Source: Planctomycetota bacterium (GTDB lineage: Bacteria; Planctomycetota; Planctomycetia; Gemmatales; Gemmataceae). Taken from it: 59,913 nt of DNA. The notes beneath the pieces are model-generated. The model had not been told where the DNA came from. It saw nothing but the letters and a program-made list of their open reading frames with translations, and did not search any database. The DNA is taken from positions 1 to 59,913 of the forward strand of contig VGZJ01000005.1 of assembly GCA_016872595.1 (NCBI GenBank), given 5' to 3'. The position numbers were made by a program, and so were the translations under genes. Below are positions 115 through 30,036 of the stretch, in pieces. Each line of letters starts with the position of its first letter. Within the stretch, counting starts at the first letter, position 1.

Positions 115-620
115 ACGACGACGGCATGAAACACGTCAAGGAACTGGCGGGCCTCGAACAACTCGTTCTCGGCAACACGTTGGTGACGGACGTCGGCCTT
201 GCCGAACTGAAGGGGCTGAAGAAGCTCAAGTCGCTAACCGTGTCCGGCTGTACCCGCATGTCCGACAAAAGTACGGAGACGATCGCGGGGTTCACCGATC
301 TCGAATACCTGTCGCTGCCAAGTACGATCACCGAGAAGGGCGTGAAGAACCTCGTCGGGCTGAAGAAGCTCACGGGCCTCTACATCGGCGGAGCCGTGAT
401 GACCGACGCCGCGATCAAGGACATTGCCGACAACATGCCGGAGTTGCAAAGCCTCGAACTCGGCGCGGGATTCGGTACCGACATCACGGACGCCTCGATA
501 CCCTCATTCTCGAAATTGAAGATGCTGAAGGAACTGGGAGTCGTCGGGTCGAAGATCACCGACAGCGGTCTGAAGTCGCTCCGCGACAAACTGCCCGATT
601 GCAAGATCACAGCAAAGTGA
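78..620 (+). CDS. Leucine-rich repeat protein, 5' end replaced by an IS
   Basis: Contains about five 24-26 residue LRR units of the planctomycete type (for example LTGLYIGGAVMTDAAIKDIA), which form a solenoid used in protein-protein contacts. The GTG at 78 and roughly the first 12 codons lie inside the IS terminus (96-114), so the native N-terminus, normally including a signal peptide, is missing. The frame is open back to base 3 but that upstream part is IS sequence. The remaining 168 or so residues are intact to the TGA. Most likely this is a truncated remnant; whether it is expressed from the IS is unknown. Confidence 0.75.
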   Translation: MRLNQHLLRNESNDDGMKHVKELAGLEQLVLGNTLVTDVGLAELKGLKKLKSLTVSGCTRMSDKSTETIAGFTDLEYLSLPSTITEKGVKNLVGLKKLTGLYIGGAVMTDAAIKDIADNMPELQSLELGAGFGTDITDASIPSFSKLKMLKELGVVGSKITDSGLKSLRDKLPDCKITAK

Positions 621-636
621 CGACCGGGGTGACCTC

Positions 637-1206
637 ATGGCGAAGAAGCATGAGCACGAACAATGGGCGCGGCCGGTCGACGAGCTGCGCGAGCGCGAGG
701 TCGCTATCGAAGACGGGCTGACCGAATCCGAGGCGCGCGACGCGGAGTATCGGTTCGGGTTCCGGTTTCCACCGGACCTGCGCGCGCTCCTGCAAACCGG
801 CCTTCCGGTGAGCGGCGGGTTTCCCGACTGGCGCGACGGCGACGAGGGCGCGCTGCGGAGTGCTCTGAACTGGCCGCTAGAAGGAATGCGGTTCGACATC
901 CAGAACAACGGGTTCTGGATCGCGGAGTGGGGGCCGCGCCCGCCCGCGTTAGAAGAAGCCTGTCAGATCGCCGCGCAAGCGGTCGCCGCCGTTCCGCGAC
1001 TGGTTCCCGTGTGCGGCCACAGGTACATTCCCGCGGAGCCGGCGCGGGCCGGCAACCCGGTCTTCTCGGTTTACCAGACAGACATCATCGTCTACGGCAA
1101 CGACTTGCTCAGCTACTTCGCGCACGAAATCGGCGGCGTTGCCAACTGGCACACGCCGCCGATGGACACGCGCCCGATTCGCTTCTGGGGCGCGCTGGCC
1201 GGGTAA
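637..1206 (+). CDS. SMI1/KNR4 (SUKH) family protein
   Basis: This 189-residue protein carries SUKH-superfamily features: an N-terminal acidic helix with LTESEARDAEYRFGFRFPPDLRALL (residues about 28-52) and the later GFWIAEWGPRP and IIVYGNDLLSYF segments. SUKH proteins in bacteria are commonly immunity proteins of toxin systems, but many are orphans. No toxin gene is visible nearby. The start follows a GGGGTGACCTC stretch and lies 16 bases after the LRR remnant's stop. Predicted cytoplasmic; no signal peptide. The role as immunity protein is inferred from the family only. Confidence 0.75.
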   Translation: MAKKHEHEQWARPVDELREREVAIEDGLTESEARDAEYRFGFRFPPDLRALLQTGLPVSGGFPDWRDGDEGALRSALNWPLEGMRFDIQNNGFWIAEWGPRPPALEEACQIAAQAVAAVPRLVPVCGHRYIPAEPARAGNPVFSVYQTDIIVYGNDLLSYFAHEIGGVANWHTPPMDTRPIRFWGALAG

Positions 1207-1222
1207 AGAATTGGAGGCGCGC

Positions 1223-2875
1223 TCAGCCCAGCGCGGCCCTGATGGTCATGGTGAACGTGCTGCCCTTGCCGGCTTCGCTCTGCACGGTGATTTGCCCGCC
1301 CATTGCGGCGCACAGCTTCTGGCTGATCGCGAGGCCGAGGCCGGTGCCGCCGAACTTGCGGCCGGCGCTCGAATCGACCTGCGTGAACGCCTGAAACAGC
1401 CGCCCCACCTGCTCCGGCGTCATCCCGATGCCGGTGTCGCTCACGGCCACCTTCAGCACGTCCGCGCCGCCCGCGGCGGTTTCGCGCCGCGCGGTCACGC
1501 GCACGGTGCCGTCCTTTGTGAACTTGCAGGCGTTGCCCACGAGGTTCAGCACGCACTGGCGGATGCGCGTCGGGTCGCCCACACCCTTGCCGAGGTCCGC
1601 GGGGATGTCCGCTTCCACCTTGTTGTTGTTCTTCTTCGCCAGCGGTTCCACCGAAACCATCAGGTCGCTCAGCAGGCTGCTCGGCGCGAACGGTTCCTTG
1701 CCGATCTCCAACTTCCCGGCGTCGATCTTGGAGAAGTCGAGGATGTCGTTGATGAGCATCAGCAGGTGGTGCCCGGACGTGTGAATCTGGTTCACGTCCG
1801 CGGTGTACTGCGGCAGGTTGTCGGCCTCGGCCTGTTCGAGCAGCATCTCGGCGTAGCCGATGATCGTGGTCAGCGGGGTGCGGAGTTCGTGGCTGACCAT
1901 TGCGAGGAACCCGCTCTTGGTGCGGTCGGCTTCCTCGGCCGCTTCCTTGGCGACGCGCAGGCGGTTGGCCTCTTCGTCGCGGTCGAGGCGTTGAAGCCCC
2001 GCGCCGACGGCCGTTGCGAGGAGTTGCACGACCTGCGCTTCGAGCGGGCCGATCTCGCGGCCCTTCGCGCGCTGCATCCGCGAGCCGTACACGACGCCGA
2101 CGACCTGTTCGTGCTCGTTGAAGACGGGCGACACGACGACGCCCTGCACCCCGACGAGGCTCTCGCCGCCGCCGATCCCGGCCGCGCCCATGAAGAACGT
2201 GCGCTTGCCGGCGAGCGCCTGATTCAGGATCGCGTGGCTGAACGCGCGGCCCTTGGGGGCGTCGTCGCGCGTGGTGTGCGCGGTGACCCGCCACGCGTCG
2301 CCGTCGCGCATCAGCACCATGCCGCTGTCCAACCCGATGCGCTCGACGAGCGCTTCCGCGGCCTTCTTGTAGAACTGTTCGCGGTCGCTGGACTTCTGCA
2401 CCTCGACGACGGTTTCGAGCCACGCGACGACCTCTTCGGGTCGCGCGGCCTCGTCGGTGCGCTCGATGATGGGCGGGGCCACCACCGTCTTGCCCCCGCC
2501 CCCGCCGGACGGCTTGCCGGGCGCGGCAATGGTGCGGAGCACGTTCACCGACAGCGGTTCGGCGTCGCCAGAATCGACGTCCACGACCGTTTCGCCGACC
2601 GCGAGGCGCACCGGCAACAGGTAGTCGCAGTCCGCGCCGGGGTTCAGCACCGCGTGCCCGTCGATGGTGAGCGGCGCTTTAGTGCTCAGGTTGACGACCT
2701 TGACCTTGCGCCCCGGCACTTCCTCAATGCGGATGTGGTCGCGCGAGACGAAGGCGTCTTTGACAACGACGCGCGCGGTGCCGGTGCGCGCCGGCCCGCG
2801 GCCGATCTCGAGCGGCCCCGCGTTGTGCGTGAGTTGCTGCGTTTCGAGCTTGTTCGCGACCGTGAGCGTGAGCAT
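1223..2875 (-). CDS. FHA-GAF sensor histidine kinase
   Basis: A soluble 550-residue hybrid. An FHA domain (about 20-100, with SRDHIRI) precedes a Gly-rich linker, a GAF domain (about 150-295), a HisKA dimerisation helix with phospho-acceptor His329 in MVSHELRTP, and a HATPase_c domain with an N box (NLVGNACKFTKDG) and G boxes (DTGIGM, GGTGLGL). FHA binds phosphothreonine, so the protein may link Ser/Thr kinase signalling to two-component signalling. There are no membrane helices and no response regulator gene is adjacent. It lies about 120 bases downstream of the Hsp70-like gene on the same strand, separated by two perfect hairpins. Confidence 0.9.
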   Translation of the reverse strand: MLTLTVANKLETQQLTHNAGPLEIGRGPARTGTARVVVKDAFVSRDHIRIEEVPGRKVKVVNLSTKAPLTIDGHAVLNPGADCDYLLPVRLAVGETVVDVDSGDAEPLSVNVLRTIAAPGKPSGGGGGKTVVAPPIIERTDEAARPEEVVAWLETVVEVQKSSDREQFYKKAAEALVERIGLDSGMVLMRDGDAWRVTAHTTRDDAPKGRAFSHAILNQALAGKRTFFMGAAGIGGGESLVGVQGVVVSPVFNEHEQVVGVVYGSRMQRAKGREIGPLEAQVVQLLATAVGAGLQRLDRDEEANRLRVAKEAAEEADRTKSGFLAMVSHELRTPLTTIIGYAEMLLEQAEADNLPQYTADVNQIHTSGHHLLMLINDILDFSKIDAGKLEIGKEPFAPSSLLSDLMVSVEPLAKKNNNKVEADIPADLGKGVGDPTRIRQCVLNLVGNACKFTKDGTVRVTARRETAAGGADVLKVAVSDTGIGMTPEQVGRLFQAFTQVDSSAGRKFGGTGLGLAISQKLCAAMGGQITVQSEAGKGSTFTMTIRAALG

Positions 2876-2905
2876 GGAAGTCTTCCCGCAACCTAACCCC
2901 GCAAC

Positions 2906-2978
2906 CCCCCTTCCCTAAGAGGGAAGGGGGTGAAAGGTCGGACGTGCTTTGTTCCCCCTTCCCTCTTCGGGAAGGGGG
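2906..2978. repeat. Pair of C/G-rich hairpins between Hsp70-like and kinase genes
   Basis: Stem one pairs CCCCCTTCCCT (2906-2916) with AGGGAAGGGGG (2920-2930) over a 3-base loop. Stem two pairs CCCCCTTCCC (2954-2963) with GGGAAGGGGG (2969-2978) over TCTTC. Both have the same arm sequence, so they look like two copies of a small dispersed palindrome. They may act as attenuators or mRNA processing sites between two co-oriented genes. Neither has a clear downstream T-run. Confidence 0.7.
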
Positions 2979-2993
2979 TTAGCTTCTTCGCGC

Positions 2994-5852
<2,859 letters not shown>

Positions 5853-5879: not shown

Positions 5880-6881
5880 ATGGCAACGTCAATCTTAGGG
5901 CTAGACATCGGCGGGGCGAACCTGAAGGCCGCAACACCGGATCGGCGCGCGGTGTCGGTTCCGTTCGCGCTGTGGAAGCACCCGGAGCAACTGCCGGCCG
6001 CGCTCGCCGCGCTGGTGGCGCAGTTTCCCGACGCAACGGAACTCGCGGTCACAATGACCGGCGAGCTGTGCGACTGCTTCGAGACCAAGCGCGAAGGTGT
6101 GAACACGATTGTGGACGCGGTGCAACAAGTCGCGGGAACGCGCGCCATGCGCGTGTGGAGCACAGACGGCAAGTTCCTGCAAGGATGGGAAGGCAAGGTG
6201 GATCAAAACTACATGAAGGTGGCGGCGGCGAACTGGCACGCGCTCGCGACCTTCGCGGGGCGATATGTACCGAGCGAGGGTGCGGTCTTGATCGACGTCG
6301 GGAGCACCACATCGGACATCATTCCGATTCTCGACGGGAAGCCGGTGCCCGAAGGGAAGACGGATTACGACCGCATCTTCACGAACGAGCTGCTGTACAC
6401 GGGCGTCCGGCGCACGCCGATCTGTTCGCTGTTCGGTTGGCAGGTCGCGGCGGAAGTCTTCGCCACTACGCTGGATGCCTATCTCCTTCTCGGCCTGATC
6501 CCGGAAGATCGGGATGATTGCGACACGGCCGACGAGCGCCCGGCGACCAAGCACCGCGCCCGTGCGCGTCTGTGCCGAATGTACTGCGGTGATATTGACA
6601 CGATCCCGACCGAGAACATCCAGACGCTCGCGGAAAGCGTTCGTGATCGTCAGCAAATGCAACTCTCGCACTGCATCGAGCAAGCCACGAACCGCTTGCG
6701 GCTTCTGAAGAAGGATGTTGGCATTCGTTTCATCGTGTCGGGTTCGGGCGATTTTCTCGCACGACTCGCAGTACGCGATGACCTTTGCACCGAATCGTTG
6801 AGCCGCAGACTCGGCCCGGCGGTCTCGGCGTGCGCGCCGGCGTACGCGGTCGCGGTGCTCGCGGCGGAGCGGCGGCCATGA
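5880..6881 (+). CDS. H4MPT-linked C1 transfer pathway protein (hydantoinase/oxoprolinase-like)
   Basis: A 333-residue ASKHA-fold protein with IGGANLKAA (about 9-17) and LIDVGSTTSDIIPI (about 139-152), matching the methanofuran-biosynthesis (MfnF-like) or H4MPT-linked family found in methanogens, methylotrophs and planctomycetes. The archaeal homologue joins the furan and tyramine-glutamate parts of methanofuran; the planctomycete role in the C1 cofactor pathway is inferred. The stop overlaps the start of the next gene (ATGA), indicating translational coupling to the kinase partner. Confidence 0.82.
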   Translation: MATSILGLDIGGANLKAATPDRRAVSVPFALWKHPEQLPAALAALVAQFPDATELAVTMTGELCDCFETKREGVNTIVDAVQQVAGTRAMRVWSTDGKFLQGWEGKVDQNYMKVAAANWHALATFAGRYVPSEGAVLIDVGSTTSDIIPILDGKPVPEGKTDYDRIFTNELLYTGVRRTPICSLFGWQVAAEVFATTLDAYLLLGLIPEDRDDCDTADERPATKHRARARLCRMYCGDIDTIPTENIQTLAESVRDRQQMQLSHCIEQATNRLRLLKKDVGIRFIVSGSGDFLARLAVRDDLCTESLSRRLGPAVSACAPAYAVAVLAAERRP

Positions 6882-7501
6882 TCGTCGTGAAGGTCGGCGG
6901 GAGCCTGTTCGACTCGCCCGCGCTCGCGCCGGCGCTGCGGGCGTTCGTCGAATCGCTCGCGCCAAGTGACGTACTGCTCGTGGGCGGCGGCGGGCCGGTC
7001 GCGGACGCCGTGCGCGAGTTGGACCGCACGCACGGGCTGGGGGAAGAAGCCGCGCACTGGCTGGCGCTGCGGTCGCTGGGGGTGACGCGCGCGTTGCTGG
7101 CCCGACTCGTCAGCGAGCGGCGCGGCGTAAGCCCGCCGGTGCGACACAACTTAGATTCGCTTAGCGATAATGCGGGGTGTAGCACCGGCGGGCTTACGCC
7201 GCGCCGCTCGCTCGTTGAAATCCTCGACCCCTTCGCCTTCGCCCAAGAGGACGAATCGCGTCCCGGCGCGCTTCCGCACATGTGGGCCGTGACCACCGAC
7301 TCCATCGCGGCGCGGGCGGCCCTCGTGTCCCGCGCCGAGCGGCTGATTCTACTCAAATCCGTGGACGTTCCGCCCGGTACGCCGTGGGAGGTGGCCGCCA
7401 CGAACGGCTGGGTGGACGCACACTTCCCCCAGATTGCGCCTCTCCTCGCGTGCCCCGTGGAGGTCGTGAACTTCCGGCGCGCCCTGTGTTCTCGCGCCTG
7501 A
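6878..7501 (+). CDS. Aminoacid-kinase-fold protein of the H4MPT-linked pathway (MfnE-like), with embedded palindrome
   Basis: The ATG at 6878 overlaps the preceding TGA by 4 bases, giving 207 residues. The N-terminus MIVVKVGGSLFDS and the LLVGGGGPVAD loop are the nucleotide-binding signatures of the aspartate/glutamate/uridylate kinase fold. With its neighbour this fits the MfnE kinase of methanofuran-type cofactor synthesis. A 99-bp perfect-armed palindrome at 7113-7211 adds exactly 33 codons in frame (reading SERRGVSPP...GGLTPRRSL), between LLARLV and VEILDPFAF. Whether the insertion is tolerated in an active enzyme is untested. Confidence 0.8.
   Translation: MIVVKVGGSLFDSPALAPALRAFVESLAPSDVLLVGGGGPVADAVRELDRTHGLGEEAAHWLALRSLGVTRALLARLVSERRGVSPPVRHNLDSLSDNAGCSTGGLTPRRSLVEILDPFAFAQEDESRPGALPHMWAVTTDSIAARAALVSRAERLILLKSVDVPPGTPWEVAATNGWVDAHFPQIAPLLACPVEVVNFRRALCSRA
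7113..7211. repeat. Palindromic element A, copy 1 (inside a coding gene)
   Basis: A 30-bp left arm (7113-7142) is perfectly complementary to the right arm (7182-7211); the arms start GCGAGCGGCGCGGCGTAAGC. The 39-bp centre is not related to that of copy 2 at 29937-30036, although the outer 28 bases of each arm are identical. Total length is 99 bp, a multiple of three, and all 33 codons are open in the kinase reading frame. Confidence 0.9.
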
Positions 7502-7517: not shown

Positions 7518-9206
7518 ATGCTTGGCGCGAAACTCAGTTCGCACCGAACGGGCGCGCCAATGCGGTTCATCATCGCCGACGAGTTCTACCAGCAGATGAT
7601 CGCGGTGCCGGACCACACCCCGGACTGCTACGTCCGGCCCGGCGAGTACCTGCACCACATGTACATCGACGGCGTCAAGTACGCGGTCGCCCCCGCGGTG
7701 CTCGACTGCCTCGCGCAGGCCGAAGCGAAGGGGGACCAAGAGGCCGTCGCGCACCTGCGGCTGCACAAGCTGCACTTCGAAGCGCTGATGGCCGACGCGC
7801 ACCGAAACGGCACCCTCACCGAAGACGTGACGCTGCTCGGCGACGCGCCCCCCACCGACGAAGAGGCGATCCCGGTCACGGGCAACGCCTACGCCCCGCG
7901 CGTGCCCTCGCGCTGGGAGGACCTCGGCCTCGAACTGCCGTTCATCTTCGACCTCGCGCTGCGCACCATCTACACCCGCGGGCAGATCACCGGCGGCGAG
8001 CTGGCGCAGGCGATGGCCGTGCCGTTCGCCGTCGTGAACCCCGTGTTTCAGGCGATGCGGAAGCAGTCGCTCATCGACATCGTCGCCCAGCGCGGCAACA
8101 GCGGCGACGCCAGCTTCGTCTACGCGATCAAGCCTCCGAAGGGCGAGGACGCGCTCCGTGACGCGCTCGAAAAGACCAACTACGTCGGCCCGGCCCCGGT
8201 GCCGTTCGCGGACTACGTCGAATCGGTCATGGCCCAGACCATCAAGCGCCTCGTGGTCACGCGGCGCAGCATCCGCCGCGCGTTCGAAGACCTCATCATC
8301 ACCGACGAGTCGTTCAACGAGATCGGCCCGGCGATCAACTCCGCGCAGTCCATCTTCTTCTTCGGCTACCCCGGCAACGGCAAAACCAGCGTGGCCGAGC
8401 GCATCACGCGACTGATGGGCGATTCCATCTACGTGCCGCACGCGGTGGAGGCCAACGGCCAGATCATCAAGGTGTTCGACCCGATCCAGCACAACCCGAT
8501 TCAGGAGGCCGACGACCAACCCGTCACGGAAACCGTGCTCAAGCGCGGCACGCAGTTCGACCAGCGGTTCATTCGCGTCAAGCGGCCCACCATCGTGGTC
8601 GGCGGCGAACTCACGATGCCGATGCTCGACCTGAAGTACAACGAGATCGGCAAGTACTACGAAGCGCCGCTCCAGATGAAGGCCAACGGCGGCATCTTCA
8701 TGATCGACGACTTCGGCCGCCAACAGGTGCGCGCGATGGACCTGCTGAACCGCTGGATCGTGCCGTTGGAGAAGAAGTACGACTACCTGAACACGATCAC
8801 CGGCACGAAGATCGAAGTGCCCTTCGACCAGCTCCTGATCTTCAGCACGAACCTCGACCCGAACCAGCTCGCGGACGAGGCGTTCTTGCGCCGCATCAAG
8901 TTCAAGATCGAGATCCGCGACCCGGACGAGGCCCAGTACCGGAAAATCTGGGAACTGGTGTGCAAGGGGAAGCGCGTGGAGTTCGACTCGCGCGGCGTGG
9001 ACTACCTGATTCAGAAGTGGTACCGGCCGACGAACCGGCCGTTCCGCATGTGCCAGCCGCGCGACATCCTCGACCAGATGATGAGCATCGCGAAGTACAA
9101 CATGGAACGGGTGAACTTCTCGCCGGACCTGATCGACGCCGCGTGCGCGACGTACTTCATCAGCGCGCAGGCCAAGAACTTCGGCGCGAAGGTCCGCATG
9201 GAGTGA
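7518..9206 (+). CDS. AAA-type ATPase with N-terminal winged-helix-like region
   Basis: A 562-residue cytoplasmic protein. Residues 140-205 resemble a winged helix (IYTRGQITGGELAQAM...). The ATPase domain has Walker A GYPGNGKTS (283-291), Walker B FMIDDFGR (near 390) and a sensor-1-like FSTNLDP, followed by an alpha-helical lid. Similar ATPases are widespread in planctomycetes without an established function. The start at 7518 has GAAGG 9 bases upstream; an alternative ATG at 7560 (MRFIIADEFYQQ) is also credible because TACTAT at 7514 could be a -10 box. It follows the C1 gene pair by only 16 bases. Confidence 0.82.
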   Translation: MLGAKLSSHRTGAPMRFIIADEFYQQMIAVPDHTPDCYVRPGEYLHHMYIDGVKYAVAPAVLDCLAQAEAKGDQEAVAHLRLHKLHFEALMADAHRNGTLTEDVTLLGDAPPTDEEAIPVTGNAYAPRVPSRWEDLGLELPFIFDLALRTIYTRGQITGGELAQAMAVPFAVVNPVFQAMRKQSLIDIVAQRGNSGDASFVYAIKPPKGEDALRDALEKTNYVGPAPVPFADYVESVMAQTIKRLVVTRRSIRRAFEDLIITDESFNEIGPAINSAQSIFFFGYPGNGKTSVAERITRLMGDSIYVPHAVEANGQIIKVFDPIQHNPIQEADDQPVTETVLKRGTQFDQRFIRVKRPTIVVGGELTMPMLDLKYNEIGKYYEAPLQMKANGGIFMIDDFGRQQVRAMDLLNRWIVPLEKKYDYLNTITGTKIEVPFDQLLIFSTNLDPNQLADEAFLRRIKFKIEIRDPDEAQYRKIWELVCKGKRVEFDSRGVDYLIQKWYRPTNRPFRMCQPRDILDQMMSIAKYNMERVNFSPDLIDAACATYFISAQAKNFGAKVRME

Positions 9207-29936: not shown

Positions 29937-30036
29937 GCGAGCGGCGCGGCGTAAGCCCGCCGGTAGCTGCACAACTGAGAAGGTCGTGCGCATCTGAAGT
30001 GCTCAGCCACCGGCGGGCTTACGCCGCGCCGCTCGC
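29937..30036. repeat. Palindromic element A, copy 2 (intergenic)
   Basis: Arms of 28 bp at 29937-29964 and 30009-30036 are perfectly complementary and identical to the outer arms of copy 1 at 7113-7211. The 44-bp centre is unrelated. It lies between the methyltransferase and CdiI-like genes. A smaller imperfect hairpin with ACCCCGACGGGGTG lies at about 29863-29877. Confidence 0.9.

Follow-up and report, generated by a model that had tools for sequence, protein, structure and literature searches.

A dispersed palindromic element lying in frame within a planctomycete kinase gene, and its probable REPIN-like origin

How a long and nearly perfect palindrome can lie inside a coding sequence without closing its reading frame is the question raised by a locus in a 59,913-nt stretch of planctomycete DNA, hereafter the window, which belongs to a genome of 6.8 Mb (G000). 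The features considered are collected in Table 1. The initial annotation had described a 99-nt palindrome with perfect 30-nt arms placed in frame in an amino-acid-kinase-type gene, and the sequence, the coordinates and the open reading frame all agree with this description. Indeed, a repeat search returns slightly longer arms of 36 nt (7112-7147 and 7177-7212) that are 97% complementary, with the outermost 30 nt of the element pairing perfectly and one extra A:T pair just beyond. The frame stays open through the palindrome, by which the protein gains the residues ERRGVSPPVRHNLDSLSDNAGCSTGGLTPRRS.

Table 1. Position of the palindromic elements and of the neighbouring genes in the window.
Feature	Position	Strand	Remarks
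Type A palindromic element, in-gene copy	7113..7211	.	99 nt, in frame
Left perfect arm	7113..7142	+	30 nt
Right perfect arm	7182..7211	-	30 nt
Host gene, MfnE-like amino-acid-kinase-fold protein	6878..7501	+	207 aa; start codon (ATG) overlapping the last bases of the preceding ORF
Hydantoinase_A family gene, upstream and overlapping	5880..6881	+	
Second type A copy	29937..30036	.	100 nt, intergenic
Type B palindrome core, unrelated to type A	2906..2978	.	intergenic by coding-potential scan

The host protein is recognised by Pfam as AA_kinase (E 3.4e-9), and the NCBIfam MfnE model matches its residues 1-71 with 45.5 bits, below the cut-off of 300. The AlphaFold model of the kinase has MfnE (7qrh) as its best structural match (Z 19.0, rmsd 2.4, 173 aligned residues, 29% identity), the next entry having a Z of 16.3. 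In this model the pLDDT averages 57, 51 and 62 in the three blocks of the insert and is mostly above 90 in the remainder; the modelled MfnE fold is intact, and the insert leaves it as a loop of low confidence between helix 56-79 and strand 113-115. The sequences flanking the insert remain under constraint, as judged from dN/dS ratios of 0.31 against G014 (78 codons) and of 0.13-0.28 against eight other relatives; these are pairwise values, from which the date of the insertion is not derivable. Translation of the insert and neutrality of the loop which receives it are both presumed here.

The palindrome belongs to a dispersed family, designated type A, as had been proposed. When at most one mismatch is allowed, the 18-nt arm core CGGCGTAAGCCCGCCGGT matches the genome 69 + 64 times, and the same pattern reversed, taken as a control, 0 + 0 times; this is well beyond chance, and the arms are not confined to this locus. 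With up to four mismatches permitted over both arm cores combined, the genome contains at least 64 two-armed elements, besides at least 15 single arms. The gap between the cores is 45 nt in 30 of the 64 pairs, 44 nt in 13, and 43 and 46 nt in three each (49 of 64 within 43-46 nt); a short class of 9-18 nt accounts for 11 pairs, and gaps of 40, 42, 52 and 89 nt occur once each. The modal element is 101 nt long and three of the 64 copies measure 99 nt. The consensus of the 30 modal elements is self-complementary at 100 of its 101 positions, and the individual centres are therefore diverged versions of one palindrome. This bears on the second copy in the window, for which identical arms, a different centre and an intergenic position had been claimed: its outer 28 nt are indeed identical to those of the kinase copy and neither of its sides has coding potential, but its centre is better described as diverged than as different.

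The contrast between conserved arms and a variable centre, also anticipated in the initial annotation, is clear among the 30 modal copies, which differ pairwise by 7.2% on average over the outer 28 + 28 nt and by 40.2% over the centre. The two arms moreover change together: at the one arm position that varies they are complementary in 29 of the 30 modal copies, where shuffles expect 13.2, and in 60 of the 64 pairs overall. No overall covariation is found in the centre of the modal copies, pairing being 0.629 against 0.611 when shuffled, and there is no excess of wobble pairs (58 G-T against 65 A-C mismatches). The data do not favour selection for RNA pairing, and the conservation of the arms may reflect recognition by a transposase, gene conversion or both. 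The ends are ragged in some copies. A target-site duplication of at least 5 nt, a trait of classical MITEs, is absent from all 64 copies, and 4-nt duplications occur in three of 64 against 1.67 expected. Of the 128 element ends, 20 have GCGC immediately beyond them and only three have T as the first base outside, which might denote a target preference.

Beyond this genome, the exact long two-arm pattern was found in six of 95 genomes of the family, with 31 occurrences in G000, 7 in G014, 4 in G027, 3 in G016, 2 in G012 and 1 in G020. Dense arrays of three or more arms are seen at L301 (G016) and at L297-L300 (G027), some of them around a transposase gene.

Type A elements are only exceptionally located in genes. 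Coding potential was scanned with statistics trained on 27 ORFs from the window, an element being counted as genic when the sequence on either side of it is open and coding in the same frame. On this basis two of the 64 two-armed copies are in a gene (one of the 64, at L147, lies too near a contig end for the scan) and none of the 15 single arms is. One host is the MfnE-like kinase and the other a decarboxylase, UbiD, recognised by its Pfam UbiD domains; both copies are exactly 99 nt long and occupy the same phase, reading ERRGVSPPV...TGGLTPRRS. The 62 non-genic copies are situated between unidirectional genes (42), convergent genes (7) or divergent genes (5), with eight of unresolved context. 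In other genomes no type A element was found in a gene among 14 loci, three of which are too near a contig end for the scan.

A candidate for the mobilising enzyme emerged from the five Y1_Tnp matches of the genome, one of which, L074:1791-2372 (193 aa), sits directly between two type A elements, beginning at L074:1692 and 2373. Its product scores 43.5 bits with Pfam Y1_Tnp (cut-off 23), stays below the NCBIfam cut-offs, with 42.2 bits against 80 for REP transposases and 39.4 against 55 for IS200 transposases, and carries the motifs SNHVHLVV, WWTERGS and YVLNQQ. Homologues are present in 64 of the 95 family genomes, the nearest being that of G016 (74% identity, L301:1577-2104), which likewise lies between type A arms. 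The best homologues in the element-bearing genomes G012, G014, G020 and G027 reach only 34-49% identity (the G014 assembly being 65% complete); no close homologue was found in these four, and the cognate pair therefore rests on two genomes. From sequence, we infer that type A may be mobilised by this Y1 transposase.

The arrangement recalls REPINs with their RAYT or TnpA-REP transposases, which in the accessible text of PMC3116915 and PMC6006769 have inverted conserved arms at a set spacing, are mostly intergenic, and come with a Y1/HUH gene flanked by copies. Type A shares with them the inverted arms, the preferred spacing, the less conserved spacer, the mainly extragenic location, the flanked Y1 gene and the existence of single arms. 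It differs in being palindromic over its whole length of about 100 nt, centre included, and in having two copies within genes; also, the GTAG which makes the 5' foot of each REP is not clearly present at the outer ends of type A, a GTAG being seen at the inner edge of the arm (positions 27-30, the A in 73% of copies). The transposase itself resembles the published class 3 TnpA-Y1, for which the available portion of PMC6006769 gives the motifs NHVH, W[TA] and YV[VI][AENY]EQ, a mean length of 178, an occurrence mainly in Planctomycetes, Acidobacteria and Proteobacteria, and flanking by genome-repeated structures with a 5' CnGA foot. With that description it has in common the NHVH and WT motifs, a length of about 178-193 aa, a planctomycete host and repeated flanking structures. 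Judged by motif rather than by a class 3 profile, SNHVH and WWT are present in both G000 and G016, while the Y----Q pattern fits YVLNQQ (G000) and not YVKRQE (G016), both of which depart from the published YV[VI][AENY]EQ; no CnGA foot is found at the outer end of type A, CAGA occurring instead within the centre consensus.

We thus consider, with a probability of about 0.74, that type A is a REPIN-like non-autonomous mobile element spread by the flanked Y1 transposase, and that one copy has been retained in a surface loop of the kinase. Under this reading the element would consist of two conserved inverted arms of about 28 nt around a faster-changing, originally palindromic centre, and it would probably be spread, as folded single-stranded DNA, by a small transposase of the HUH single-tyrosine (Y1) type whose gene lies elsewhere in the genome between two of the copies. 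One copy would have entered the MfnE-like gene between the helix and the strand mentioned above, and would have been kept because it is 99 nt long, is free of stops in the phase used, and meets a surface loop that tolerates extra residues. Mobility is inferred here, and the empty sites are those of other species rather than of the same one.

A second and unrelated palindrome family, type B, is represented in the window by the pair CCCCCTTCCC...GGGAAGGGGG, which adjoins the end of a DnaK-like ORF (2994-5852). It is likewise a dispersed repeat, present in 11 of 19 genomes, with 54 + 57 matches in G000. Among the 21 clusters listed, seven lie in frame in genes in one phase (L325, L326, L328, L331, L337, L338 and L340 of G000; six when the stricter type A threshold is applied), encoding peptides of the kind EPNPPTPFPKREGG...SLLGKGVGGLGS; the P-type ATPase and the FtsK-like gene are the hosts compared across relatives. 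No type B core is found in the stretches around the five Y1 loci of the genome. At L337, the minus-strand ORF 421-3099 carries another type B-like segment, EPPPPTPLPEGRG...SPSLQGGGWWGG, closer to its start.

We have compared across relatives the loops which receive these inserts, delimited by fixed flanks, and scored the DNA hairpin of each as a z value against dinucleotide shuffles. Four genes were picked since G000 has inserts in them: the kinase, UbiD, which is the one further gene with a type A copy, and two out of the seven with type B. The kinase loop is readable in 46 genomes and attains z≤−3 in ten. Within the genus this holds for seven of 16 genomes (G011 −12.0, G000 −11.9, G009 −10.0, G013 −8.2, G010 −6.7, G012 −4.0 and G019 −3.1), the value of G000 denoting a strong hairpin, and outside it for G090, G044 and G029; the weak cases are insecure by z alone, because control windows reach −4.7 and G009 and G012 had none. 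Type B-like sequence occupies the loop in G024 and G026, with z short of the threshold, and in G014, the nearest relative by this gene, the contig ends in the start of a type B element at this loop. As the initial annotation had foreseen, some relatives are devoid of the 33 residues: the site is empty (0-15 nt) in G015, G016, G018 and G022, and distant genera lack the segment. Neither of the two observations named there as refuting the claim, arms restricted to this place or the segment in all distant orthologues, was made.

The three other genes give a similar picture. The UbiD loop has z≤−2.9 in nine of 18 genomes and −2.6 in G013; G009 and G010 are borderline because the worst control window is −3.1, and the loop is empty (9-18 nt) in G015, G018, G020 and G017. 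In the P-type ATPase the loop is located just before GDGIND; nine of 18 genomes are at z≤−3.4 (worst control −3.2), G020 is empty (9 nt) and G025 keeps an out-of-frame remnant of 19 nt. The FtsK-like loop has z≤−5.7 in six of 18 genomes, these values being without control windows, and only 0-12 nt in the remaining 12. Over the four genes there are 31 hairpin inserts, which are not 31 events because ancestry is shared, and 27 of them read through in frame; the other four, in the kinase of G009 (two stops) and G011 (frame) and in UbiD of G009 and G012, are broken. By eye, the palindrome families differ within each site, as in UbiD, which has type A in G000, type D in G019 (a dispersed repeat with matches in 14 of 19 genomes, 82 of them in G019) and C-like sequences in G010, G013 and G024. 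As a control, the gene next to the kinase (7557-9203), examined by match spans only, shows no inserts and aligns in a single piece of 1641-1656 nt in the 15 other genomes of the genus with a full orthologue. Decay is also seen: the ATPases of G009, G010 and G012 have in common a 114-nt insert from which the hairpin is gone (z 1.4, 0.9 and −0.8, respectively). Between G009 and G010 the dN/dS of this insert is 0.30 (7 non-synonymous and 8 synonymous changes), against 0.02 and 0 for its flanks, which suggests a translated, weakly constrained segment that outlived its element.

Different palindromes at one loop across species are best explained by permissive loops together with many active families. 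A further step can be envisaged, which we regard as tentative and somewhat doubtful: certain protein loops of this genus would be standing landing sites for unrelated palindrome families, with one loop per gene repeatedly invaded, emptied and overwritten, through homing to older palindromes or through a hairpin useful at that codon (for example as a translation pause between domains), and decayed inserts would persist as ordinary protein sequence. If this were true, mobile palindromes would be a steady supply of new protein segments. Different palindromes do occur at the same loops of the kinase and of three other genes, and mobile DNA therefore seems to keep adding stretches of protein at the same places.

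The comparison made in the initial annotation with the protein-coding elements (RPE) of Rickettsia, in which the peptide would maintain the element and genes would be its main niche, is not sustained for type A and appears unlikely. The two in-gene copies do agree in phase and length, and type B comes closer to such an element with its in-gene clusters in a single phase; however, the scan places 62 of the 64 type A copies outside genes, and both the anatomy and the Y1 transposase flanked by copies fit REPINs. Being mostly intergenic, with two in-gene copies of 99 nt in the same phase, type A is therefore RPE-like in effect rather than demonstrably an RPE. Slightly less credible is that the palindrome is not mobile and serves as a regulatory RNA hairpin, be it a terminator, a ribosome pause or a stabiliser of the mRNA. 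The strong fold of the kinase loop would agree with this, as would the stop trinucleotides found within 12 nt on either side of 42 of the 64 copies, a raw count without chance control, but an RNA function of the palindrome is argued against by an Rfam scan of the window, which returned no family at gathering score, and by the centre covariation equal to shuffles; nor do G-T mismatches exceed A-C ones there, and the decayed ATPase inserts persist at equal length with their hairpin gone.

The least probable explanation is a dead kinase gene or an assembly error, with the insert due to a mis-join. Although the same loop is broken in G009 and G011, both kinase flanks in G000 align unbroken to their orthologues with the frame kept across the insert, the catalytic-type motifs are intact by eye, dN/dS is well below 1, and UbiD carries a second in-frame copy. 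The transposase, the UbiD copy and the other palindrome families at the kinase loop of relatives are what the present analysis adds to the initial annotation.

In-frame palindromes as such have precedents. Those of Rickettsia and Wolbachia are described in the accessible parts of PMC10969869 and PMC4224334 as 100-150 nt palindromes translated in frame in unrelated genes in one phase, and these parts name no transposase. The likeness with type A, set against these parts, is the in-frame position and single phase of both in-gene copies, whose translation is predicted; the differences are the mostly intergenic distribution of type A, its flanked transposase gene, and the presence of several unrelated families at one loop across species. 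The consulted sections of PMC3733652 report GTAG/CGTC REPs inside ORFs, among them recB REPs at about the same site in two Xanthomonas species, as well as GTAG REPs in Planctomycetes; relative to these sections, all four genes studied here have different families at the same loop across the genus, together with precise empty sites. A literature search limited to titles and abstracts, and mostly outside subscription journals, found no in-gene palindromes in Gemmata or other planctomycetes. With intragenic REPs and the Rickettsia and Wolbachia palindromes in print, the kind as such has been described before; within the literature searched, the variant is new.

The known cases of protein-coding palindromes are mostly those of Rickettsia and Wolbachia; the kinase insert is one such palindrome whose family includes copies flanking an HUH transposase gene. 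Related free-living genomes display the same sites of conserved enzymes in filled, decayed and empty states, and this, together with the flanked transposase, makes the way in which mobile DNA turns into protein directly testable. Also, the little-studied class 3-like transposases gain a candidate substrate.

Other Y1 transposase genes have inverted repeats of their own in the vicinity. A palindrome with 26-nt arms, itself internally palindromic, is found at L079:1169-1260 beside one such gene (C296), and a 19-nt inverted repeat, CCGGCCTCTGCGAGGCCGG, lies at L075:1143-1237 upstream of another, whose product is above the NCBIfam cut-off for REP transposases (107.5 bits, cut-off 80).
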